IMG/VR virus record: IMGVR_UViG_3300023082_000098
Span: 1-22,426 of that record
DNA: 22,426 bases
Source: a virus
Direction: 5' to 3' (one strand)
Shown here: one piece after another, positions 2 through 22,426 of the stretch
Layout: every line of letters starts with the position of its first letter
How positions within the stretch are numbered: position 1 is the first letter of the stretch
Program-made: the position numbers and the translations under genes
The notes under the pieces: generated by a model
Database searches by the model: none
Told to the model about the DNA's origin: nothing
What the model saw: only the letters and a program-made list of their open reading frames with translations

Positions 2-541
2 GTGGGCGAGATGTTCCTTGCTCGTGGGTATGATGTGTTCACTGACGTAACAGACCTGTCACAGGCCAACCTCGTGTGTTTTACAGGGGGTTCTGATGTA
101 AGCCCGTACATCTACGGTGAGGAACCAAACGGTGCCCGTGGTTGTGACCCAGTTCGTGATGAAGTTGAATGCGTTCTTTACCACGCTGCAAAAGATCAGG
201 GCATTCCCTGTGTTGGGATTTGCAGGGGTGGTCAGCTTCTAAATGTACTGAATGGTGGGTCGATGATTCAGCATTTGGGTAAGACAATCTCCGGAGATAT
301 TGAGGTCTGGAATGATTGGGGTGACGAATCTTTCGTGGTGAGGGTGGATCATCATCAGGGAATGGTCGCTTCAGAAAAGGGTGACATGAGTCTCACCTAT
401 GGTTTTCAAGAAGGTGATCCTCATTACGAAATCTGGTATCCTGAAACCAAGAGTCTGTGTGTCCAGTATCACCCTGAGTGGGGTCATGAAGGCACTGAGG
501 CTCGTTTCTTTGAACTATTAACCCGGTATATTGGAGACTAG
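2..541 (+). CDS. Class I glutamine amidotransferase-like protein (peptidase C26 type), 5' partial
   Basis: The reading frame is open to the left edge, so the N-terminus is probably missing; the GTG at position 2 need not be the start. The visible 179 residues show a class I amidotransferase/gamma-glutamyl hydrolase fold. There is a TGGSDV segment (residues 28-33), a nucleophile elbow GICRGGQ with Cys74, and the distal His157 and Glu159 in YHPEWG, giving a complete Cys-His-Glu triad. A DHHQG segment (116-120) resembles the substrate region of gamma-glutamyl-GABA hydrolases of the PuuD type. Known members either release ammonia from glutamine or hydrolyse gamma-glutamyl amides. Given the amidoligase, cyclotransferase and ATP-grasp genes downstream, I infer a hydrolytic or editing role on a gamma-glutamyl product. 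The next gene starts 1 base after the stop, so the two are probably cotranscribed. Confidence 0.85.
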   Translation: MGEMFLARGYDVFTDVTDLSQANLVCFTGGSDVSPYIYGEEPNGARGCDPVRDEVECVLYHAAKDQGIPCVGICRGGQLLNVLNGGSMIQHLGKTISGDIEVWNDWGDESFVVRVDHHQGMVASEKGDMSLTYGFQEGDPHYEIWYPETKSLCVQYHPEWGHEGTEARFFELLTRYIGD

Positions 542-542
542 C

Positions 543-974
543 ATGGGGTGGAAAGAAAGCATCCATTTCGAAGAAGATGAGTCTGTAAGTGTGTGCTCTC
601 GAATGTTCCTTTCAAGCTTCGGTGAACGAGGACCTTCGTATGAAGTCGGTGACTACACTGGCACCAAAAGTAATCATGCAAAGGACTTGGCAGAGTTCAA
701 AACACATCTTGTCACAATTTCCAAACTCTGGGACAAACGATGGAAGGACTATGCCAAAGACGCAGGACAAAACAAATCGATGCATCGAATGGCTTTTGTT
801 GAAGCTGTGACATGCGATTTGCAACCTAAGGCTGAGGAGTATCTTGAACAGCTTGGGTTCACAAAGATTGGTCCTTTCAAGAAGCTCAAACACCCTGATT
901 CTGACATCACATTGTGGGTCATGGGGTGCCCTGAGTTTATGGAAGCCATCGGTTACGAAGGGGACAACAAGTGA
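543..974 (+). CDS. Hypothetical protein of the amidoligase block (143 aa)
   Basis: I chose the ATG at 543 because GGAG at 533-536 lies six bases upstream; an in-frame TTG at 531 has no such site. The protein has no signal peptide or membrane segment. The C-terminal third, with the pattern VEAVTCDLQPKAEEYLEQLGF followed by a KLKHPDSDITLW stretch, looks like the end of a small alpha/beta domain, loosely reminiscent of an acetyltransferase (GNAT) tail. I do not see the acetyl-CoA loop, so I do not assign that function. It sits between the class I amidotransferase and a 58-residue gene that overlaps its stop. A role in the same pathway follows only from this position. Confidence 0.8.
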   Translation: MGWKESIHFEEDESVSVCSRMFLSSFGERGPSYEVGDYTGTKSNHAKDLAEFKTHLVTISKLWDKRWKDYAKDAGQNKSMHRMAFVEAVTCDLQPKAEEYLEQLGFTKIGPFKKLKHPDSDITLWVMGCPEFMEAIGYEGDNK

Positions 975-1147
975 TCAGTTATTGGATTCAAACTAATAGG
1001 GGTGGGAAGGATTGGTTCGATATTGTCCCTTTCTCCCAACAGTATCTGGCTGAGTACGTCCTCCGTACAATACGAAAAACCCCTAGTGAAAAGAAGTATC
1101 GTCTGGTCAAACGGACTAACATTCGTAACGAAGAGTTCATTGGCTAA
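971..1147 (+). CDS. Small hypothetical protein (58 aa)
   Basis: The start GTG overlaps the previous stop as GTGA, and the stop overlaps the next start as TAATG, the same coupling used throughout this block. AGGGG lies seven bases before the GTG. The protein begins ISYWIQTNRGGKDWF and is rich in aromatic and basic residues (TIRKTPSEKKYRLVKR), so it could be a small beta-rich or nucleic-acid-contacting protein. No family is recognised. The tight overlaps on both sides are the main evidence that it is translated. Confidence 0.7.
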   Translation: MISYWIQTNRGGKDWFDIVPFSQQYLAEYVLRTIRKTPSEKKYRLVKRTNIRNEEFIG

Positions 1148-1935
1148 TGTGTGGACTTGCAGGGGTTGCTGGCCATGGTATCCTAGGGTTTCACCTAGAT
1201 GCCTTTCAAGAACTACTCTATCTCACTGCTCTACGGGGTCGTGACTCGACTGGGGTCTATGCTGTACGGTCTCGCTATGACAATGCACCATCGATCCTCA
1301 AGAAGAATATCGATGAGGCCAATGATTTCCTGAAGGACTATGCTGGTCGTCATGGGTTTCTCAACGATATGTCTTGGGATGTGATGATGGGCCATTGCCG
1401 TTGGGCAACTGTTGGCAAGATCACTGCAAAGAATGCTCATCCATTCGATGTAGGCCCATTGGTTGGTGCTCATAACGGGACACTGACGGACAAAATGTTC
1501 CTATCACCAAACAAGACCGACTCTGAGATGATGTTCGAAAGGATGGCATCTGTAGGGGTCAAGGAGACCCTTGAGGGGCTTTCTTGGTGGGATGCATATG
1601 CAGTATCCATCTGGCTCAAGGAAGAACGTAGGCTCATCCTCGCTCGGAATACATCACGTCCATTGTTCACTGCAATCTGCAAGAATAGTGATGTCATGTT
1701 CTGGGCATCTGAGGCTGAGGCATTGTTTATGATCAGTCATCGTCACAAGATGCCGGTCAGTGTCTTCAAGATGGAACCAAACAACATCTACGAAATTGAT
1801 CCCGCCGAAATCAAGGCTGGTTCTGATGCACCTTGGAAGATGACTTCTGTCGAACCCAAGGTAGAGTATACGAAGATCATCAATACATCGGGTACTGCTG
1901 ACATGGACGGTGTGCCATGGGGTAATGCCCTTTAA
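1147..1935 (+). CDS. Class II (Ntn-hydrolase) glutamine amidotransferase, copy 1
   Basis: The protein starts Met-Cys-Gly, so removal of Met1 would expose Cys2 as the N-terminal nucleophile of the class II family. The other active-site positions known from GlmS-type domains are present: Arg85 in CRWATVG, His98 in NAHPF, Asn110 and Gly111 in the HNG oxyanion element, and Asp125 in the following TDSE motif. It therefore probably hydrolyses glutamine to glutamate and ammonia, or acts on a related amide. At 262 residues it is a single domain with no fused synthetase. Ammonia would have to be passed to a separate partner, and the amidoligase two genes downstream is the obvious candidate, though this is inference. 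It is coupled to the preceding gene by TAATG. Confidence 0.92.
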   Translation: MCGLAGVAGHGILGFHLDAFQELLYLTALRGRDSTGVYAVRSRYDNAPSILKKNIDEANDFLKDYAGRHGFLNDMSWDVMMGHCRWATVGKITAKNAHPFDVGPLVGAHNGTLTDKMFLSPNKTDSEMMFERMASVGVKETLEGLSWWDAYAVSIWLKEERRLILARNTSRPLFTAICKNSDVMFWASEAEALFMISHRHKMPVSVFKMEPNNIYEIDPAEIKAGSDAPWKMTSVEPKVEYTKIINTSGTADMDGVPWGNAL

Positions 1936-1949
1936 AGAGGAGCACTGAG

Positions 1950-2582
1950 TTGCTTAAGAATCGGTTTGACGACAAGATGTCGTGTAAGTACACTTTGCAT
2001 AGCGACCTTGACACCCGTCTGAACAATACTATCTGCCGTTTGGACGGGATGCCAGTGTACGTTAAAGTGAGTAGCCCAACGGATATTACTCTCTATGAAG
2101 TTGAAAATCGCAATGCCAAGGTTGCGACTATCTCCCCTAATGACCCTCGTTTCGACATCAGTCATATGGACTTGGGTTACATGAATTGGGACATGACCAA
2201 GTTCGAAGGGCAGGGTGCCCCTAATCGAGTCGTCTATCTGCAACGTAGCCCTTCGAAGAAATACAAGCAGGGGACTTGTGGAAATCATACGACTGCCTGT
2301 GACCTCACTGGTAAGCCCAGTCATTACAGTGCGAGTGATGTGCTCTACACAAAGGGCTTTGTCGACAGCATCCTTGGGAACTTCCCCAAGTTGTCTGACC
2401 TGAAGGTTGGCCAGTTGGCATTGTCTCAGGATGTTGCTGCTGAAACCGACGAGCTTGGTCTTGTCAAGCTGTACTACAGAGGCACAGCAGTTGCCTACAA
2501 ACTTCCCAATGACTCTAAGTTGCACACTCTCCGCAACGATATGTCTTGGGTAATCGATCGTTTCCTTGGAGATCTGGAATGA
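1950..2582 (+). CDS. Hypothetical protein between amidotransferase and amidoligase (210 aa)
   Basis: The TTG start at 1950 is favoured by a strong GAGGAG at 1937-1942 with seven bases spacing; the in-frame ATG at 1977 has nothing comparable. The 210-residue protein is soluble, of mixed charge, and has no transmembrane segment. It contains a Cys/His cluster (GTCGNHTTAC, near residue 110) that could bind metal, but there is no recognised motif. Its last codons overlap the amidoligase start (ATGA). Its fixed place between an amidotransferase and a ligase makes it a candidate substrate, carrier or scaffold of the pathway; the sequence does not show which. Confidence 0.82.
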   Translation: MLKNRFDDKMSCKYTLHSDLDTRLNNTICRLDGMPVYVKVSSPTDITLYEVENRNAKVATISPNDPRFDISHMDLGYMNWDMTKFEGQGAPNRVVYLQRSPSKKYKQGTCGNHTTACDLTGKPSHYSASDVLYTKGFVDSILGNFPKLSDLKVGQLALSQDVAAETDELGLVKLYYRGTAVAYKLPNDSKLHTLRNDMSWVIDRFLGDLE

Positions 2583-3787
2583 GTGTATACAAAGCACTAC
2601 GCAGGAATGTCCAGTGGAAGCCCAAACAGGGCACCTACGGGATTGAGATTGAATGTGAAACGAAACATGCTTCAGACTACCCTGATGGTTTTCTGGAAAA
2701 TCCGAGGGACCACAACAGTCGTCCTATCACGGTTTACGATACTCCAATGATCGTCGATTGGGAGGCCAACAGTGACGGCTCTCTTCGTGACTTTGGCATG
2801 GAGTTCATCCTTAAGGAACCCCTCTTCTACTTGGATGCAGTGGCAGCACTGGATGATTTCGGTGTCAAGACCAAGACTGTCAAGTTCCTTGAAGGTACCC
2901 CTTCGACTTCTGTTCATGTCCATGTGAATATGGCAGAAGAGACTCTCTTGACGATGGCAAATTTCATTGTTGCCTATGCTCTCTATGAGAACCTGTTGCT
3001 TGAGTACTCTGGTGAGTCTCGTAGGAGCAACTTGTTTGCCTTGGGTATCCGTTCTGCTGAGGGTTCGTTGCATAACATCCTCAAGCTGTTCACTGGTGCC
3101 AACGAAGGCAAGTATCAGGCCCTTGTCCACAGTGAGTCGTATGTCAAGTATGCTGCACTGAACATCGCTACGCTCGCTCGTTTCGGTTCGATTGAGATTC
3201 GTTGTTTCCGTGGCACGACAAATGTCAAGGAGATTCAGGAATGGCTCTCGATCATCAATAAGCTATACCTCTTTGCAAAGTCTCCGGGTCTAACACCAAA
3301 GCGTATGCTGTTGGAGTTCAATGCAAAGGGTGATGAGCTTCTGTCGGACATCTTCGGAGAGTATTCGGAGAAGCTTAAGTGCCTTGATTACAAGTCGATG
3401 ATTGATCGCAATCTGTACTATGCCTACAAGATGGCTACTTGTGTGGACAATTGGGAAACCTTTGGTCTGGAGTTCGATAAGATTCCTGATCCGAAGCCGC
3501 GAAAGAAGAACGGCAGTGGCGTGCAGATCGGTGACATTGTTCAGGTCTCTGATTCACCAATGGTCGAACTCACTGGTACCAAGCTCTTTTACAATCCAGA
3601 GAATGGTCTGTACGAACTTAAGGTGCATAATCTGAGCAAGTATGTCTATGGTCTGTCTCTTGCACAAGCTCAGCAGGACGTAGTAAGTCATTCGGGATTG
3701 TTTGGTATTCCATTGCAGCCTATCCCCCAACCTTGGGCAAGTGCCCCTACACCAGCTTTCCATGCCAATGAAGAGGACGATATCTAA
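2579..3787 (+). CDS. Amidoligase_2 family COOH-NH2 ligase
   Basis: The ATG at 2579 overlaps the upstream stop (ATGA) and follows GGAG at 2567-2570 with a good spacing, so I reject the TTG further upstream. The 402-residue protein shows the glutamine-synthetase/ATP-guanido-fold features of the amidoligase family. These are GIEIECE at residues 21-27 (paired metal/ATP-binding glutamates), a DGSL...EF element at 66-76, SVHVHVN at 111-117, and RFGSIEIRCFRGT at 201-213. The family was defined computationally as ATP-dependent formation of amide or peptide bonds on proteins or small metabolites; no substrate can be read from sequence. After about residue 310 there is a basic, probably beta-rich tail (DIVQVSD, KYVYGLSL) of unknown role. 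The two flanking Ntn amidotransferases could feed it ammonia or release its products. Confidence 0.9.
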   Translation: MSVYKALRRNVQWKPKQGTYGIEIECETKHASDYPDGFLENPRDHNSRPITVYDTPMIVDWEANSDGSLRDFGMEFILKEPLFYLDAVAALDDFGVKTKTVKFLEGTPSTSVHVHVNMAEETLLTMANFIVAYALYENLLLEYSGESRRSNLFALGIRSAEGSLHNILKLFTGANEGKYQALVHSESYVKYAALNIATLARFGSIEIRCFRGTTNVKEIQEWLSIINKLYLFAKSPGLTPKRMLLEFNAKGDELLSDIFGEYSEKLKCLDYKSMIDRNLYYAYKMATCVDNWETFGLEFDKIPDPKPRKKNGSGVQIGDIVQVSDSPMVELTGTKLFYNPENGLYELKVHNLSKYVYGLSLAQAQQDVVSHSGLFGIPLQPIPQPWASAPTPAFHANEEDDI

Positions 3788-4890
3788 TGTGTGAAATTCT
3801 ATACCTTAAGGCTGGTGTGATGCCTGTTGAAGAAGAGTTCCGTAACATGTGCCACAACAACTGGCATAGCTATGGTATGGTCACTCTGATCGATGGCAAG
3901 ATGGACATCAAGAAGAAGGTCCCTGCGTCTGGTGAGATCGATCCTGATGAACTCCTGAAGCTTGTTGAGGCTGACATAGCATATGATCGCTTCGTTCATG
4001 TTCGTCACAACACAGCGGGGGCTACCACCCTTGAGAACTGCCATCCATTCGATGTGTTCTATTCGAACAAGAGGCAGATCGTCTTCATGCACAACGGTAC
4101 TATGTATGAATACAAGTCGGTGACTTACACTGCACAGGGAGTCAAGCAGGATGACAATCTCGGCCCGAGTGATACTCAGAACTTTACTAACCGAGTTCTT
4201 GTACCTTACCTCTCTGGTCTCGACTTCGGTAACGGTCATGGAGATATTGAGGATGAGCGTGTAATCACTCTGATCAAGAAGTTCTTCCCTGCAACTGGTA
4301 ATCGTGGTCTCTTGATTAGTAGTGATCAGAAGCCACTGTTCCTAGGTGACTGGAAGAAGACTCAGGGTACCAAGGGTGAAGAGATCATCTGCGCCAACGC
4401 TGACTACTTCAAGAAGGTTATCCGTGGTCCTGAAGATACACGGAGGGTAGCCCGGCTCAAGCAGCTTGAACTCGAAGCAGCAGCGGCGAAAGGCTCGCAG
4501 GTTCAAACGAAGGGAACAGTGGGGCAGGAGGTAGTACCTTTCACCCTCTTCAACTTTCCGACACCTAACAAGCCTTCTAACAACCATGGTGTCTTCCATC
4601 TCAAGGAATCCTTGAAGGGTATCCTGAATGACTACAACATCTGGGATCGTAGCTGTGCAGTTGCTCTTGGTGCTGCTACCCATGCAGAACTCAGGGAAAT
4701 TGCTTCGGTACCTGAGACTGCAGCCACACTCATGGACTGGATCTTTGCGGACTATGCAACCATGAATGAAGAACTTGAAGAAACAGAGGCCAAGCTCAAG
4801 AAGGCAACAATGCACATTGCAACGATGCAGGAAGAACTCAAGGACTTGCGTAATGCAATGTTCCCTAAGAAAGAAACGAAGGTAGGCTGA
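3787..4890 (+). CDS. Class II glutamine amidotransferase, copy 2, with C-terminal coiled coil
   Basis: This is a second Ntn-type amidotransferase, started by TAATG overlap with the amidoligase gene. Catalytic Cys2 follows Met1. Arg73 (HVRHNTAG), His86 (CHPF), Asn103-Gly104 (HNG) and Asp129 (SDTQ) match the GlmS-like constellation. It is only distantly similar to the first copy, so this is not a recent duplication. It is longer (367 residues). After the catalytic domain come an Ala/Glu-rich linker near 230-250, an unrecognised region and a terminal heptad-rich helix (from about residue 325, ELEETEAKLKKA...) that should form a coiled coil. The coiled coil suggests oligomerisation or docking to a partner, which the first copy lacks. 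Confidence 0.88.
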   Translation: MCEILYLKAGVMPVEEEFRNMCHNNWHSYGMVTLIDGKMDIKKKVPASGEIDPDELLKLVEADIAYDRFVHVRHNTAGATTLENCHPFDVFYSNKRQIVFMHNGTMYEYKSVTYTAQGVKQDDNLGPSDTQNFTNRVLVPYLSGLDFGNGHGDIEDERVITLIKKFFPATGNRGLLISSDQKPLFLGDWKKTQGTKGEEIICANADYFKKVIRGPEDTRRVARLKQLELEAAAAKGSQVQTKGTVGQEVVPFTLFNFPTPNKPSNNHGVFHLKESLKGILNDYNIWDRSCAVALGAATHAELREIASVPETAATLMDWIFADYATMNEELEETEAKLKKATMHIATMQEELKDLRNAMFPKKETKVG

Positions 4891-4892
4891 AT

Positions 4893-5468
4893 ATGGCAGT
4901 TTATAGCAGCATCACTCCCCTTGAAACTCTGGAAAAACGTCTTCTCCAAAGGGAGACGCCAGACTTTCTTGAACGGAAGCTTGAGGGACTGATCCCTGTG
5001 TTCGTCTATGGTAGCCTTCGTGAGGGTTTCCATAATCATGATGTTGTCAAGGGGAATTTCTTCCTTGGTTCAGCAGTGACATCCATTGAGAAATATGAGA
5101 TGCGTGAGCCTAACCACGGGGGCTTCCCCTTGGTATTCGAAAGATCTTCAGATGCATCTTGTACGACCAAGGGTAAGATCAACGGTGAAGTCTATGTCGT
5201 TGATCCTATCACGCTTCTGAACCTTGACCAGCTTGAAGGCAACGGTCGGATGTACACTCGCAAACAGCAGTGGGTGTACCTGAAAGACCAACAGCTTGGC
5301 AACAAGACCAGCATTCGTCCAAGCATCTTCGTTTGGATGTATATGGCTCAACCCAAGTATTGGGAACACAAGGGTCATTATCAATGTGCCAACAAGGTCA
5401 CTGAGGGTAAACGAGTATACGACTGGGCAGATTGTGCAACTTACAACGATCAGGGGACATGGCAGTGA
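4893..5468 (+). CDS. Gamma-glutamyl cyclotransferase-like (AIG2/GGCT fold) protein
   Basis: The protein carries the hallmark FVYGSLR loop (residues 37-43) that binds the gamma-glutamyl moiety in GGCT-fold enzymes. It is followed by GGFPLVFE, GEVYVVDP (98-105) and LDQLEG with Glu115, the likely catalytic acid/base by analogy to the family, then a Tyr-Thr-Arg. Known members cyclise and release gamma-glutamyl groups as 5-oxoproline from gamma-glutamyl amino acids, glutathione or gamma-glutamylamine crosslinks. An N-terminal helix of about 33 residues precedes the domain. The protein is 191 residues against about 110-150 for minimal members. In this operon it would reverse or trim gamma-glutamyl bonds made by the ligases, which is inference. 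It starts two bases after the amidotransferase stop. Confidence 0.87.
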   Translation: MAVYSSITPLETLEKRLLQRETPDFLERKLEGLIPVFVYGSLREGFHNHDVVKGNFFLGSAVTSIEKYEMREPNHGGFPLVFERSSDASCTTKGKINGEVYVVDPITLLNLDQLEGNGRMYTRKQQWVYLKDQQLGNKTSIRPSIFVWMYMAQPKYWEHKGHYQCANKVTEGKRVYDWADCATYNDQGTWQ

Positions 5469-5629
5469 TCATTTACAGAGCTTTGTACATTGATGACGGT
5501 GGCCGAATAAAGAAAGACTCTTTCCACAAAACTAAAGATGGAGCTATTCACAAGACTTGGGAGTGGGAGCCAAAAGAATTTGAGCATTCCTACTTCACAA
5601 CGGTAAAAAAGGTCAAGGTCGATGACTAA
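5459..5629 (+). CDS. Small hypothetical protein (56 aa)
   Basis: The ATG at 5459 sits within the last codons of the cyclotransferase gene and is preceded closely by AGGGG. The reading frame extends further upstream, but that part overlaps the cyclotransferase gene in another frame and is unlikely to be used. The protein begins MAVIIYRALYIDDGGRIK and is strongly charged (Lys/Asp/Glu) with several aromatic residues. It resembles a small single-domain protein with an initial beta-strand. No family is recognised. Its stop overlaps the ATP-grasp start, so it belongs to the same translational chain. Confidence 0.7.
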   Translation: MAVIIYRALYIDDGGRIKKDSFHKTKDGAIHKTWEWEPKEFEHSYFTTVKKVKVDD

Positions 5630-6395
5630 AATGGCTCGTATTTGGTCTTACAACAAGGAATCCGAGGGGGCTAAGAACCTCTCGGAAGCTCTTGGAGTCA
5701 AGAGACTCAAGCATCAGGGTAGCACATGGAAACCTGCAGGTAAGACTGTGATCAACTGGGGTTCTTCTCAATTGCCTGCAGGACTTCTGAGCGCAGCGAA
5801 GATACTCAACAATCCTGTGTCTATCAAAGTCAACTGTGACAAATTGGCTTTCTTCAAGCGTATGCCAGAATTTCTGATCCCTGAGTGGACAGATGACGTG
5901 TCAATAGCCTCTGGTTGGCTCACAGAGGGCCATACAGTGGTTTCTCGTGCAATTCTGAATGGACATAGCGGGGAAGGCATTACGCTCACTGACAGTACCT
6001 CTACGGCTCCTTTGCCAGAAGCACCTCTGTATACCAAGTATTTCAAGAAGAAGGAAGAGTATCGAGTTCATATCGTCAATGGTGAGATCATTGATGTTCA
6101 ACAGAAGAAACGAAAGACTGAAGTTGCAGACGATTCTGTAAATTGGAAGATCCGTAATCTTGCTGGCGGTTTCATCTATGCGAGGGATGGCGTTGAGCCG
6201 CCTGAACAGGTGAAGGATGTAGCCCTTCAGGTTCACAGTTGCACTGGACTAGACTTTGGTGCCTACGATATCATTTTCAATGCAACTGCACAGAAAGCTA
6301 TTTGCTTGGAAGTGAACTGTGCTCCGGGGATTACAGGGACAACAGTAGAGAACTATTCCCTTGCACTCAAGAAGCTTCTTGAGGAAATTGCTTGA
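5622..6395 (+). CDS. ATP-grasp domain ligase (RimK/YheC-like)
   Basis: The C-terminal half shows ATP-grasp features: a KYFKKKEEYRVHIV strand-turn typical of the nucleotide-binding subdomain near residue 140, an LDFGAYDI stretch, and the metal-binding AICLEVNCAPG with Glu230 and Asn232 followed by the GITGTT loop. At 257 residues it is a compact ATP-grasp without an obvious extra domain. The family activates a carboxylate as an acyl-phosphate and joins it to an amine or thiol; RimK-type members add glutamate residues to proteins. Two different ligases in the same block (this and the amidoligase) suggest two successive couplings or two substrates. ATG 5622 overlaps the upstream stop. It is the last gene of the block and its stop coincides with a promoter-like TTGACA. 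Confidence 0.88.
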   Translation: MTKMARIWSYNKESEGAKNLSEALGVKRLKHQGSTWKPAGKTVINWGSSQLPAGLLSAAKILNNPVSIKVNCDKLAFFKRMPEFLIPEWTDDVSIASGWLTEGHTVVSRAILNGHSGEGITLTDSTSTAPLPEAPLYTKYFKKKEEYRVHIVNGEIIDVQQKKRKTEVADDSVNWKIRNLAGGFIYARDGVEPPEQVKDVALQVHSCTGLDFGAYDIIFNATAQKAICLEVNCAPGITGTTVENYSLALKKLLEEIA

Positions 6396-8487: not shown

Positions 8488-8676
8488 ATGAGAGCTTATG
8501 GTATGAATAGCCGGAGAGATTCTCCTTGTTGTTGTCCGGGTCACGATAAATTCTCTTTGGAAACTTATAACAACAATCGTTCCAAACGTGCTCAAACTCG
8601 TGATACTAAAGTTCTTCATAGACGTGGACGTAGGGTAGACAAACTCAAACTTCAAAAGGAACTGAATGAGTCGTAA
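8488..8676 (+). CDS. Small Cys-rich basic protein upstream of primase (62 aa)
   Basis: It has the best ribosome-binding site in the region, AGGAGG at 8477-8482, five bases before the ATG. The product has a CCCPGH cluster near residues 14-19 and a strongly basic helical C-terminus (RSKRAQTRD...HRRGRRVDK), suggesting a metal-dependent nucleic-acid-binding peptide. I recall similar small proteins near replication genes in other podophages, but the function is not established. Its end overlaps the primase-helicase start by 11 bases, so the two are probably translationally coupled. Confidence 0.72.
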   Translation: MRAYGMNSRRDSPCCCPGHDKFSLETYNNNRSKRAQTRDTKVLHRRGRRVDKLKLQKELNES

Positions 8677-10228
8677 GTTTGAAGAGATGGGACTACCCTG
8701 TCCCTGTGGTCAGTCAAGTGACGCATATGCAATTGATTACAGTGGACGGGGATTTTGCTTTAGTTGTGGTAAACCAGTTCAACAGGAGAAAGAAATAGAA
8801 GAGACGACAGAAGTTTTGGAAACCCCATTCGTAGGGGAGACAGTGGACTATGTACTCAAGGCTCATCGTGGACTCTCCCGAAGTACCGTTGAGTTTTACA
8901 ACATCACAACAAAGGTAGTAGACGGCAATGACTATGCCTACGGATTTGTCTACCCCAATGGTGCCACCAAAGTTAAAAGAATTGGGGACGTACCTCGAAA
9001 GGAACGATATAAGTGGTCAGGAGAAGCAAACGCTGCTGGCCTCTTTGGTAAAGATCTGTTTGCTGCAGGGTCCAAAAAGTCTATCACAATTACGGAAGGA
9101 GAACACGATGCACCGTCTTTCTACGAGATCTCCGGTGGGTCCACGGCTTCCGTAAGCGTACAGTCATCCTCCACTGCTCTCCGAGACATTGACCTCGAAC
9201 GAGACTATGTAAATAGCTTCGATAAGATCATCCTTGCATTCGATAACGATGAGGCTGGTCAGGCAGCAACCAAGAAGGTCATGGCGTCTGGTCTCTTCGA
9301 CTTCAACAAGATGTACTATGTTCCATTCACCAAACACAAGGATGCTAATGCCTATCTTCAGGCAGGCGACATCAATGATCTTGTAAGGGACTGGAAGGCA
9401 GCCAAGAAGTACACACCTGATAACATCATTAGCACCTTTGACGAGATCCGTAATGCGCTCTCAGAGGCTCGTGAGGATGAGATTGGTACCTACCCTACCC
9501 AGAAGCTAAATGAGATGCTCTACGGGTTCCACAGGGGTCAGGTAGTGGTGTTTAAAGCTCAGTCAGGTATCGGTAAGACTGAAGTGTTCCGAATGTGTGA
9601 ACATCATCTTTTGAAAACTACCACTTGTAAGCTTGGTCTAATTCACATGGAGGAAGACAAGTCTACTACAATCAAAGGAGTTGCAACCTATGAATTGGGC
9701 ATACCTTGTGCGCTACCTGATACTGGGGTGTCCGAAGAAACAATTCTCTCGGCATATTCTTCTGCAGTTAGCGGGCAAGAAGATAGAGTCTTTCTTTACA
9801 CTATGTTCGGTGGCGATGATCCTAACGATGTCCTCGATAGTATTCGTTTTCTTGTTAGTAGTGGTGGCGTTGACATTGTATTCCTTGATCATATTACTAT
9901 GCTCGTTACTGGTGTAGAGGAAGGCGATGAGCGACGTAAGCTAGACTATATGTCTACCAAGCTTAAGAAGATGTGCAAGGAGCTTAAGTTCTGTCTGTGT
10001 ATGATCACTCATGTGAATGATGATGGTCAGACCCGTGGTTCCCGTAACATTGAGAAGATTGCAGACGTTATGATCGATCTTAGCCGTGATAAGCTTGCAG
10101 ATGACGAGTACGAAAAGAATACGACTTACATCACAGTTGAGAAAAATCGTATGACTGGTCGTACTGGTAAGGCAGGTAAATTGTATTTCAATAGTTCTAC
10201 ATTCAAACTTGAGGAGATTCCGTCTTGA
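8666..10228 (+). CDS. DNA primase-helicase (T7 gp4-like)
   Basis: A bifunctional primase-helicase of 520 residues, close to T7 gp4 (566). Domains in order: a zinc finger CPC...CFSC (Cys12, Cys14, Cys31, Cys34) that reads the priming site; a TOPRIM primase fold with catalytic Glu144 in ITITEGEHD and Asp193-Asn194-Asp195 in ILAFDNDEAG; then a RecA-like DnaB-family helicase with Walker A SGIGKT (300-305) and Walker B VFLDH with Asp408. A NDDGQTRGSRNI segment follows as the probable DNA-binding or arginine-finger region. It unwinds the fork and makes primers for the polymerase encoded downstream. The start overlaps the Cys-rich small gene. No anomaly is seen. Confidence 0.95.
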   Translation: MSRKFEEMGLPCPCGQSSDAYAIDYSGRGFCFSCGKPVQQEKEIEETTEVLETPFVGETVDYVLKAHRGLSRSTVEFYNITTKVVDGNDYAYGFVYPNGATKVKRIGDVPRKERYKWSGEANAAGLFGKDLFAAGSKKSITITEGEHDAPSFYEISGGSTASVSVQSSSTALRDIDLERDYVNSFDKIILAFDNDEAGQAATKKVMASGLFDFNKMYYVPFTKHKDANAYLQAGDINDLVRDWKAAKKYTPDNIISTFDEIRNALSEAREDEIGTYPTQKLNEMLYGFHRGQVVVFKAQSGIGKTEVFRMCEHHLLKTTTCKLGLIHMEEDKSTTIKGVATYELGIPCALPDTGVSEETILSAYSSAVSGQEDRVFLYTMFGGDDPNDVLDSIRFLVSSGGVDIVFLDHITMLVTGVEEGDERRKLDYMSTKLKKMCKELKFCLCMITHVNDDGQTRGSRNIEKIADVMIDLSRDKLADDEYEKNTTYITVEKNRMTGRTGKAGKLYFNSSTFKLEEIPS

Positions 10229-19278: not shown

Positions 19279-21864
19279 TTATTTTCCAGCTACTATAGTT
19301 TCACGTCCTACTTTGAACCCTTCGACTCGTTCCATAGCATTTAGCATACGGACACGTTGCTCTTGAGTCAACTCAGAGACAGGAGTGTCAGCAGAAACGC
19401 CAACAGCTCTTGCTACAGCATTTGTGTAGGCATTGGTATTGTTCTCAAATGGAGGGGCATATCTATCGATAGCTCCTGCAATTGTCTTGCTACGATATCC
19501 GGGGCTCTCGAAGAGGAGTTTAGCTTTTGCTTCTCTTCCAGCTTCATAGCTTGGGAATACGGCAAACCTACCGTCACTCCCTACGGCACCAGCGCTTTTG
19601 GCAAACTTACCGTACTCAATGTTACCGGGGTTATTATTCCTCCAGTTACGAGCACCAGTCCTACGTACTACAGAACCGTCAGACTGTCGAGTTTCTGTGT
19701 AACCCGGACCTGCTCTCAGAACTGCATCGAAGGGGCTAGACTGAGTGTTATCTCCTGTGGAAGCGTACGCTAGAGCACCACCAATGTTTTCTCCTTCAGG
19801 CATTTCCCAAGAAACATCCTCTGAATCATCAGTGTTGGTTGCACCTACGTCTTCCCAAGTGCCGGTTTGATTAGGATCAGTCTTGGTTTTCCTATCACCT
19901 TCAGTCTCATTGGCTCCAGCACCAAGGGCACCTAGAGCATCATTGATGTACCAGTAGAAGCCTTCCTTATGTTCTCCCTGTAGGTTGAGAGCAAGGTTCT
20001 TGGCAAGCTGTTGTACACCTTCAGTCTCGTCACCACCATTAGCTTCAATGATTGGAGCCATAGTCGTCAGAGCCTGATTGAACGCATCTACACCCTTGAC
20101 AAGTTCACCCTTCCAAAGGTTCTGATCTCCACGCTGGAAGAATCCCTGATTACCGAGAGCTTCCTTGTTGACCTGAACAACCAGTCGATTTTTCTCAGGA
20201 TCGTAATTGACACGAGCATACTTATTCCACTCGATAGCTTCATTGAGTGTTGAGCCAGCTCGACGGAACTCTGGGATCTGCTGAAACTTATCCATAGCAG
20301 CAGCAGTGTATGTCCTTATAGCTTCAGCATCGCCTAGTGCAGCAATCTGCTTAGTGATTGTAGGATTGAACATCTTATTGTACAGACGAGCTCTCTGGGA
20401 TAGACCCTTAGAACCTGTACTGTCATCGACTACCTTCCACACTGCATCCAGATCGTCACTGTAGACATTCTGTACAGTTTGCTTGACGATAGCAGGGTCA
20501 GCAGTAGGAGCTGCAATAACAGCAGTTGCACTGTCCAATACAGAAGAAAGAAGTTGTTCTTTTTCCTTGCCAGTCTTACCTGAGGCACCAGTGACACCCT
20601 CAACTACCTTACTCATAGTCATCTGACCACCAGTGACAGCAGAACTGAAGTCCTTACCAAGAGTCTTGTTGAGGAAGCTCATGCCACCCCCAGACTTCTC
20701 GTAGACTTTATCAATCAGTGTATCCGCACCAACCTGACTTACATTCTTAATTGCACCAGCAACAAGGATCTCTGGGAATTTCTCGTAGATATCAGCAGTA
20801 GCCTGATCAGTCAATGCCTTGTTACGAGCAGCAATCTGTGCAGCACCACTAAGGTTATCAGAAGTGATCATAGCCTCCATCTCATCTAGAGGAGTCAAGG
20901 CATTCTTTACTTCTTCATTGATTTCAGCAGCAGTGAAGTTGGAACCCCAAGCAGCATTGGCACTCCGCTTCCGGATGTCACCAGTTGCAGAAGCTCTGAT
21001 CTGAGCGATAACTCCAATCAATCCTTCCTTCTCATTCTGGTCTACCTTACCATCCGCCAGAGCCTTGGTCATCATAGACTGGACATTAGGCTGATCAATG
21101 CCAGCAGCTTCTGAACCACCCACGATATAGCCATTGACCACAGTGCTAAACAACTTACCGACCTGAGGCTTAGCCACGGCCTTGTCTGCAGACTGAAGCT
21201 TGACAGTATCTTCTGCAATACGGGTACGACCCTGATACTGAGATACCTGAGACCTGATATTAGCCTTAGCTTCCTCACTGGCATACTTCTCCTGATTGGT
21301 AAAGTAATCAGGGAACAGGACGCCAAGGACCTCAGAATTTTCTTTCTGTGAAGTCCACTGATCCCACTTGTTAGCACCAGTTGCAAGAGCCTGTTCAGTG
21401 TTCTGGATATTCTGGAACAGAGCATCACGATAGGCATTGGCAGGGCGGGTACCAGTTACATTCTGTACAATCTCATCAACCTGCTTCTCATATCCGGGAT
21501 ACCTTGTACGGAGTCCCTTGAGTGTTGCAGACAGACGACTGTAGTAATATTCCTGAGTTACCTTGCCCTGCATCTGAGCCATAGCCAACTTCTGCAGTCC
21601 ACCAGCACTCCGAGTGAGTTCGGCAGGTACAGTATCATTGGTCAAGTTCATTTCATCGTTCGTAGATTCAAACCCGTAACGAGCTTCATCTTCGATCTTG
21701 TTCTGGACAAAGGTGTCTGCAGTTGACACACCAGCATTAACTGCATCACCAATGCCCGAGAAGAGAGCTTCGAATGACTGATTAGGTCCAGTACCTCTGG
21801 AATCCCCTAGGTTACTCTGAAGTTGGGTATCGGAGACTTGAGCATTTGGATTAAATTCAGCCAA
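19279..21864 (-). CDS. Large virion protein with C-terminal P5-like/cell-wall-active-type domain
   Basis: I place the start at TTG (plus coordinates 21864-21862): GAGGA precedes it with suitable spacing and it follows the upstream gene's stop by five bases. The longer frame to 21909 has no such site. The 861-residue protein is mostly Ala/Gln/Asn-rich helix, as in T7-type internal (ejection) proteins, with no signal peptide or membrane segment. The last ~115 residues (NWRNNNPGNIEYGKF, GSDGRFAVFPSYEAG, IDRYAPPFENN) form a compact domain common in phage virion proteins. It is related to P5-type and lysozyme-superfamily domains thought to cut or bind peptidoglycan; catalysis is not certain. A role in DNA ejection across the cell wall is likely. 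Confidence 0.82.
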   Translation of the reverse strand: MAEFNPNAQVSDTQLQSNLGDSRGTGPNQSFEALFSGIGDAVNAGVSTADTFVQNKIEDEARYGFESTNDEMNLTNDTVPAELTRSAGGLQKLAMAQMQGKVTQEYYYSRLSATLKGLRTRYPGYEKQVDEIVQNVTGTRPANAYRDALFQNIQNTEQALATGANKWDQWTSQKENSEVLGVLFPDYFTNQEKYASEEAKANIRSQVSQYQGRTRIAEDTVKLQSADKAVAKPQVGKLFSTVVNGYIVGGSEAAGIDQPNVQSMMTKALADGKVDQNEKEGLIGVIAQIRASATGDIRKRSANAAWGSNFTAAEINEEVKNALTPLDEMEAMITSDNLSGAAQIAARNKALTDQATADIYEKFPEILVAGAIKNVSQVGADTLIDKVYEKSGGGMSFLNKTLGKDFSSAVTGGQMTMSKVVEGVTGASGKTGKEKEQLLSSVLDSATAVIAAPTADPAIVKQTVQNVYSDDLDAVWKVVDDSTGSKGLSQRARLYNKMFNPTITKQIAALGDAEAIRTYTAAAMDKFQQIPEFRRAGSTLNEAIEWNKYARVNYDPEKNRLVVQVNKEALGNQGFFQRGDQNLWKGELVKGVDAFNQALTTMAPIIEANGGDETEGVQQLAKNLALNLQGEHKEGFYWYINDALGALGAGANETEGDRKTKTDPNQTGTWEDVGATNTDDSEDVSWEMPEGENIGGALAYASTGDNTQSSPFDAVLRAGPGYTETRQSDGSVVRRTGARNWRNNNPGNIEYGKFAKSAGAVGSDGRFAVFPSYEAGREAKAKLLFESPGYRSKTIAGAIDRYAPPFENNTNAYTNAVARAVGVSADTPVSELTQEQRVRMLNAMERVEGFKVGRETIVAGK

Positions 21865-21869
21865 TTCGA

Positions 21870-22426
21870 TTATTCCTCTGTATTGAACAAGTTGTACTTG
21901 CGATTCCACTTTTCGAGATTGTTCTTGATGTTCTCGTCAAATGGTGCTTCGTTAAAGTAACGACGATTGATTTGGTTTACTTCAGTTGGTGTAAGGTCAT
22001 AGGCGATCTTAGCTGTGTCCCTACGCTTGGCATAGATACGGTAACTGTCTTCATCACCAGCAACAAGGGCACGAATAGCCTTACGATGACTATCTTCGTA
22101 TTCCTTCATGCCAGTCTGTCGAGCAGCTTTCATATCCTTGAGAGCACTAGCCGAGGCAAATGTCTCAGCAACTCGGTCAGGACTGGTACCTAGGATGCTC
22201 TGTAGAACAGCCTCAGTCTGATTAACATCAGTGATGTAGGTTCCCTTGCGAGACAGATACTTCCCTGTGTTCAGGGCCACATAGGTCTTAGCAAAGTTAT
22301 CCACTGTACTGATGTTACGAGCAAATGACAATAGGTCATCACCAGTAACATTACCATCCTTGAAGCCATAGCCATAGGCCAAGTTAGCTAAGGTGGCACC
22401 TGATCCGATAAGGTCTCCTATCACAC
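21870..22426 (-). CDS. Virion-type protein, C-terminal part (5' truncated by window edge)
   Basis: The frame is open to the right edge, so this is the end of a longer gene; the GTG near the edge need not be a start. The visible ~184 residues are helical and highly charged in the second half (KEYEDSHRKAIRALV, YRIYAKRRDTAKIAYDL) with a small Gly-rich hydrophobic stretch at the visible N-terminus (LIGSGATLANLAYGYGF). The gene directly upstream of a large ejection-type protein, in the same strand and nearly touching it, suggests another internal virion protein, but no motif confirms this. Confidence 0.7.
   Translation of the reverse strand, partial: VIGDLIGSGATLANLAYGYGFKDGNVTGDDLLSFARNISTVDNFAKTYVALNTGKYLSRKGTYITDVNQTEAVLQSILGTSPDRVAETFASASALKDMKAARQTGMKEYEDSHRKAIRALVAGDEDSYRIYAKRRDTAKIAYDLTPTEVNQINRRYFNEAPFDENIKNNLEKWNRKYNLFNTEE

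Follow-up and report, generated by a model that had tools for sequence, protein, structure and literature searches.

A described phage cassette at the edge of a viral contig

We analysed a 22,426-base viral contig (IMG/VR virus record IMGVR_UViG_3300023082_000098, positions 1 to 22,426; hereafter the window, meaning this whole stretch) and found that positions 2–6395 carry a further member of the amidoligase/ATP-grasp/glutamine amidotransferase (GATase) cassette already described in phages. The copy is cut by the contig edge and incomplete, and the cassette itself was known before; the window adds one more environmental example and no new system. From sequence comparison, we are highly confident of the identity of the cassette and of its chemical class. 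It also seems probable that this known cassette encodes a cytoplasmic, early-gene pathway that ligates and trims gamma-glutamyl or peptide bonds on a soluble peptide. Peptidoglycan, by way of a cell-wall peptide precursor, is the leading candidate for the target and is put forward tentatively. What the analysis adds is a tally of core and accessory genes, together with the recognition that the family of the 1950–2582 protein is present nearly throughout and has no known relatives in fold.

The ten open reading frames (ORFs) of the cassette all lie on the plus strand (Table 1) and either overlap at start and stop or have a few bases between them; the overlaps include GTGA at 971, TAATG at 1147 and 3787, and ATGA at 2579. 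For the amidoligase, a start at 2579 is more likely than one at 2546, because of the ATGA overlap with the stop of the 1950–2582 gene. Three of the products are GATase-type enzymes, one of class I and two of class II. An earlier note, made from the letters of the window, had pointed to these enzyme families and to their chaining by overlaps; both are borne out by family scans, intact catalytic residues and the start/stop overlaps.

Alignments with 15–160 relatives showed that the catalytic residues of the cassette enzymes are present and almost invariant. In the class I enzyme (C26), C74, H117, H118, Q119, H157 and E159 are almost invariant among 103 relatives. In class II enzyme 1, C2, R85, T88, N110, G111 and D125 are invariant or nearly so among 130 relatives, Cys2 being kept in 126/126 sequences with a letter at that column. 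Class II enzyme 2 retains C2 in 15/15 relatives. It has relatives in PhiM6, the RHph phages and two IMG/VR contigs, L099 (3300048929_000021; 51% identity) and L100 (3300020138_000007; 43%), and is a lineage-specific addition common to PhiM6-like phages. The amidoligase motifs ExExE, DxSLR, HxH and ExR are conserved, as are G40 (58/61), L42 (51/61) and the catalytic E115 (56/61) of the gamma-glutamyl cyclotransferase (GGCT), and E146, R148, D216, E230 and N232 of the ATP-grasp ligase are invariant (160/160).

The nearest solved relatives of these enzymes act on glutamyl bonds: RimK-type glutamate ligases, PuuD, an AIG2-like protein and the YbdK/glutamine synthetase fold. The AlphaFold2 (AF2) model of the amidoligase (pLDDT 81.5) found its best solved matches in YbdK, glutamine synthetase and Dop, with modest TM-scores near 0.3, and is consistent with a place in the glutamine-synthetase superfamily. 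The ATP-grasp ligase lies closest to S6/alpha-L-glutamate ligases and C26 to Lin1909 and PuuD, while the nearest structure to GGCT, AIG2-like domain-containing protein 1, is a weak match (E 8.5e-4).

Table 1. Cassette genes of the window and the downstream primase/helicase
Feature	Position	Strand	Evidence
Class I glutamine amidotransferase-like / Peptidase_C26 (PuuD-like gamma-glutamyl hydrolase), 5' end cut by contig edge	2..541	+	PF07722 E 7.9e-21; phrog_7218 8.8e-31
Small accessory protein, rare	543..974	+	no family match; HMM matches in L099 and L026/L145
Orphan small ORF, GTGA overlap with upstream gene	971..1147	+	no relatives among collected loci
Class II (Ntn, Cys2) amidotransferase-type enzyme 1, catalytic domain only	1147..1935	+	GATase_6 PF13522 1.3e-12; phrog_4736 1.2e-50
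Core module protein, phrog_11055 family, beta-rich	1950..2582	+	phrog_11055 5.4e-10
Amidoligase_2, glutamine-synthetase-fold carboxylate-amine ligase	2579..3787 (mechanical ORF from 2546)	+	PF12224 1.4e-5; phrog_7469 4.3e-41
Class II (Cys2) amidotransferase-type enzyme 2	3787..4890	+	GATase_4 PF13230 1.6e-7
Gamma-glutamyl cyclotransferase (GGCT/AIG2-like)	4893..5468	+	PF06094 3.7e-18
Orphan small ORF	5459..5629	+	no relatives among collected loci
RimK-like ATP-grasp amide ligase	5622..6395	+	phrog_2599 2.9e-80
Primase/helicase, downstream of cassette	8666..10228	+	phrog_239 1e-108

Co-occurrence and gene order among relatives

Relatives were gathered from IMG/VR with alignments of the ATP-grasp ligase and the amidoligase, annotated phages were added, and iterated profiles were built. 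Scans of viral contigs with a single amidoligase or 1950–2582 protein gave no matches, whereas the alignment queries did. The resulting tally set comprised 154 non-redundant loci, 79 of them with full flanks. The amidoligase, the ATP-grasp ligase and a class II enzyme were each present in 79/79 fully flanked loci; nearly all loci had been fetched by an amidoligase or ATP-grasp query, so that one of those two is present by construction and the other families are not. Among the same 79 loci, the COOH-NH2 ligase occurred in 78, the 1950–2582 family in 75, C26 in 67 and GGCT in 41. The near-constant core is three ligases, a class II enzyme and one partner protein; C26, GGCT and the second class II enzyme are variable, the last two forming a paired addition in PhiM6-like phages. 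This tally yields a short list of genes for deletion or purification in tractable phages.

The usual order is C26, class II enzyme, COOH-NH2 ligase, 1950–2582 family, amidoligase and ATP-grasp ligase, and a search among the relatives for fusions between module members found none. Since every fully flanked locus shares the amidoligase, ATP-grasp ligase and class II enzyme, the grouping is far beyond chance. Neither of the patterns that the earlier note had named as contrary to a cassette, scattered genes or unconserved catalytic residues, was seen.

The ATP-grasp slot is occupied by a divergent enzyme in L099 (11881–12732; R2K-like) and L100 (4444–5364), with 28–32% identity to window 5622–6395; in these two loci the predicted ATP-grasp activity is kept while the enzyme is swapped. 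The window enzyme is 51% identical to that of another locus, L019.

The contig edge and the COOH-NH2 ligase

The earlier note had described the cassette as complete, and in this respect it has to be corrected. The contig edge truncates the class I gene, whose match to its profile of 219 positions starts at about 58, and a search for the COOH-NH2 ligase (PF14395) found none on the 22 kb window contig. In L099, a PF14395 gene (E 4.2e-7) lies directly upstream of C26, and L100 has a partial PF14395 gene at the same place; the window contig ends where L099, its nearest relative, has this ligase. Given that position in L099, the missing gene probably sits just off the left contig end. In PhiM6-like phages (L005, L006, L046, L101 and L106), the 1950–2582 homologue is preceded by a divergent COOH-NH2-ligase-like gene, and three of these contigs (L046, L101 and L106) have a second such gene upstream.

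The 1950–2582 protein and the small ORFs

In 135 of 136 cases the amidoligase comes next after the 1950–2582 family, the stop-to-stop frames overlapping by a median of 28 bases. The AF2 model of the window protein (pLDDT 90.8, pTM 0.86), computed from an input alignment without rows from annotated phage records, had no match in the PDB at E<=0.001, and its significant structural matches are exclusively to phage proteins. The conserved positions of the family are internal (G76, R99, P101, R/K103, G108 and P146). The family alignment contains no conserved Ser, Cys, C-terminal or other terminal motif, an argument against a carrier protein of the classic kind; the most frequent conserved Lys is present in 77% of the aligned sequences, and the window protein has Arg at this column. 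The suggestion that one of the unrecognised proteins serves as carrier lacks support for this one. We infer instead that it is a partner subunit or a substrate-binding protein. It is improbable that phrog_11055-type proteins are the dedicated acceptor or adaptor, with a fold of their own, of a phage-only amino-acid ligation system; if they were, the cassette would represent a separate kind of phage tagging pathway and not cell-wall editing.

Two weak resemblances of this family were also recorded. Pfam SspH (small acid-soluble spore protein H) matched 8 of 58 members of the alignment (best E 2.9e-5); an SspH-like N-terminus was rejected, as the match, which lies in the N-terminal third, is below the Pfam curated cut-off in the members inspected. 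When the cassette was compared with the PADLOC defence models, the sole match was a weak one on 1950–2582 (HamC DUF3223, E 0.006).

The earlier note had proposed examining all four unrecognised proteins for co-occurrence with the amidoligase. The 1950–2582 protein does co-occur with it; the others are rare or orphans. The family of 543–974 occurs in 4/154 loci, one of them the window, and wherever gene order could be read it sits between C26 and the class II enzyme. The 543–974 protein itself had no tblastn match in 50,697 phages. Profile searches found no relatives of 971–1147 or 5459–5629 in the collected locus set.

Relation to described cassettes

A seven-gene 'peptidoglycan modification cassette' has been named in RIO-1-like phages, with RIO-1, phiEco32, 7-11, PA11, tf, MR299-2, LUZ24, PaP3 and CW02 listed as carriers and with the hypothesis that it modifies peptidoglycan and prevents superinfection (PMC5498523). 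That paper credits the cassette to Iyer et al. (2009) and Hardies et al. 2013. A peptide-bond module of PhiM6, PA11 and RIO-1 has been discussed with the same peptidoglycan hypothesis (PMC6256558), and further papers name cassette genes by annotation alone. The earlier note knew of no established substrate; the literature already proposes one, peptidoglycan, as a hypothesis. In our comparison, PA11, RIO-1, CW02, LUZ24, SU10 and others have the same core as the window and PhiM6 cassettes.

PhiM6 (MH700630) resembles the window in having C26, a class II enzyme, a 1950–2582 homologue, amidoligase, ATP-grasp ligase, a second class II enzyme and GGCT, followed by primase/helicase, and the proteins common to both are about 30–43% identical. 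PhiM6 differs in an HNH gene, in the divergent COOH-NH2-ligase-like gene before its 1950–2582 homologue and in the placement of the ATP-grasp gene, whereas the window has the extra ORFs 543, 971 and 5459 and no COOH-NH2 ligase on this contig. The RIO-1-like podoviruses, PA11, LUZ24, CW02 and phiEco32 share with the window the amidoligase, ATP-grasp ligase, class II amidotransferase, GGCT and a site among DNA-metabolism genes. Their clusters include the COOH-NH2 ligase, and the class II enzyme is usually single and extended at its C-terminus, as against two in the window, where the first lacks the extension. The nearest amidoligases, at about 43% identity, are those of L099 and L100. The gene order of L099 is that of the window, the 543–974 homologue included. 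Both relatives differ from the window in the COOH-NH2 ligase before C26 and in the divergent ATP-grasp enzyme, which in L100 directly follows the amidoligase.

Proposed pathway and alternative explanations

In the pathway that we favour, the ligases of glutamine-synthetase type (Amidoligase_2 and the COOH-NH2 ligase that probably lies just off the contig) and the ATP-grasp ligase would work in the cytoplasm, using ATP to activate carboxylates and to couple an amino acid, glutamate or some other, to a peptide or an amine. No strongly hydrophobic segment, transmembrane or signal-like, was found in any cassette protein, and the chemistry is for that reason most likely cytoplasmic. C26, the class II Ntn enzymes and GGCT may supply ammonia or, more likely, remove gamma-glutamyl groups in deprotection or glutamate recycling, while the 1950–2582 protein would be a dedicated partner of the amidoligase or its substrate-binding subunit. 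The target would most likely be a soluble peptide, a cell-wall peptide precursor in the first place, and the change may hinder later phage attack or alter lysis. Pathways that protect and deprotect with a glutamyl group include PuuA/PuuD, butirosin BtrJ/BtrG and EgtA/EgtC. The cassette may resemble these in its working, with no membership claimed, and its two ligase folds and glutamyl-cleaving enzymes fit an add-then-trim pathway. Families and catalytic residues support the gamma-glutamyl or peptide amide chemistry suggested earlier, but nothing shows that it is reversible, as had also been suggested; the cleaving enzymes may deprotect or recycle.

Several points weigh against this picture. 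The gamma-glutamyl assignment derives from family resemblance at low identity, and GGCT is present in only about half of the loci. Within the window cassette we recognised nothing specific to peptidoglycan, such as a gene for a Mur ligase or a transporter. In Puniceispirillum phage HMO-2011, from a group related to PhiM6, neither the ATP-grasp nor the COOH-NH2 ligase had a match, so the module is accessory and dispensable in some phages. In the literature consulted, which mostly excluded subscription papers, we found no experimental test of the cassette or its enzymes.

A different use of the same chemistry would be to make or remodel a small metabolite, such as a gamma-glutamyl polyamine, a gamma-glutamyl peptide or a modified thiol, with glutamate as a removable protecting group. 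The PuuD-like C26 and the cyclotransferase beside the ligases do recall protect-and-deprotect pathways, yet no gene recognised in the window points to a polyamine, a thiol or an acyl carrier, and the ATP-grasp family is almost restricted to phages, so that there is no cellular pathway for comparison; we regard this alternative as rather unlikely. Somewhat less credence is due to glutamylation or peptide modification of a host or phage protein, as by RimK on ribosomal protein S6, redirecting transcription or translation, with the cleaving enzymes editing the chain. The kinship of the ATP-grasp ligase to S6/alpha-L-glutamate ligases, the adjoining replication genes and the match of the amidoligase to the Pup system enzyme Dop would suit such a role. 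Two or three ligases of differing folds and several trimming enzymes, however, would seem more than simple tagging needs, and the 1950–2582 protein has no conserved acceptor Lys or terminal motif.

Hypermodification of phage DNA bases through amide ligation, a DNA base having been among the targets suggested in the earlier note, could also explain a position next to replication genes. In published work, HaeIII cuts the DNA of phage tf, a listed carrier (PMC5498523), and fragments of this DNA were cloned after digestion with RsaI, HpaI, EcoRV and SmaI. Bulk DNA modification is disfavoured because several restriction enzymes cut this DNA; the scans of window proteins recognised neither a homologue of thymidylate synthase nor an enzyme that modifies bases, and we consider such a role very unlikely. 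That unrelated auxiliary genes came to lie side by side by accident has practically no likelihood: gene order varies somewhat and the ATP-grasp slot is divergent in L099 and L100, but three families stay together in 79/79 loci, in near-constant order over many phage lineages.

Genomic context and distribution

The window cassette lies upstream of the primase/helicase gene on the same strand, and the downstream region also encodes a family A polymerase, an SSB-like protein, a Cas4-type exonuclease and endonucleases. Of the 138 eligible loci, 121 have a primase, at a median distance of 1.0 kb downstream; in none of them is it encoded on the opposite strand. The window polymerase shares about 55% identity with its counterparts in PA11-like phages, 57% with that of L099 and 51% with that of PhiM6; on these identities the phage is placed near Zobellviridae and PhiM6.

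Hundreds of phage genomes carry the cassette, among them those of well-studied phages of Pseudomonas and E. coli, and the hosts named for phage records with the ATP-grasp gene are Gram-negative. Halobacterium phage ChaoS9, considered as a carrier in a murein-free host, was rejected, as it has the class II domain only and no ATP-grasp or COOH-NH2 ligase match. An ATP-grasp alignment scan of 84,980 cellular genomes returned four small contigs of metagenome-assembled genomes (L180–L183), each with the module, which are probably phage sequence binned with cells. Two of the four are labelled Patescibacteria/Dojkabacteria.

At the far end of the window, on the minus strand and thus opposite to the cassette, positions 19279–22424 encode a large protein of 876 amino acids, whose C-terminus resembles an endolysin (phrog_873), and next to it a partial protein. 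Both look as expected for internal virion proteins of a podovirus.

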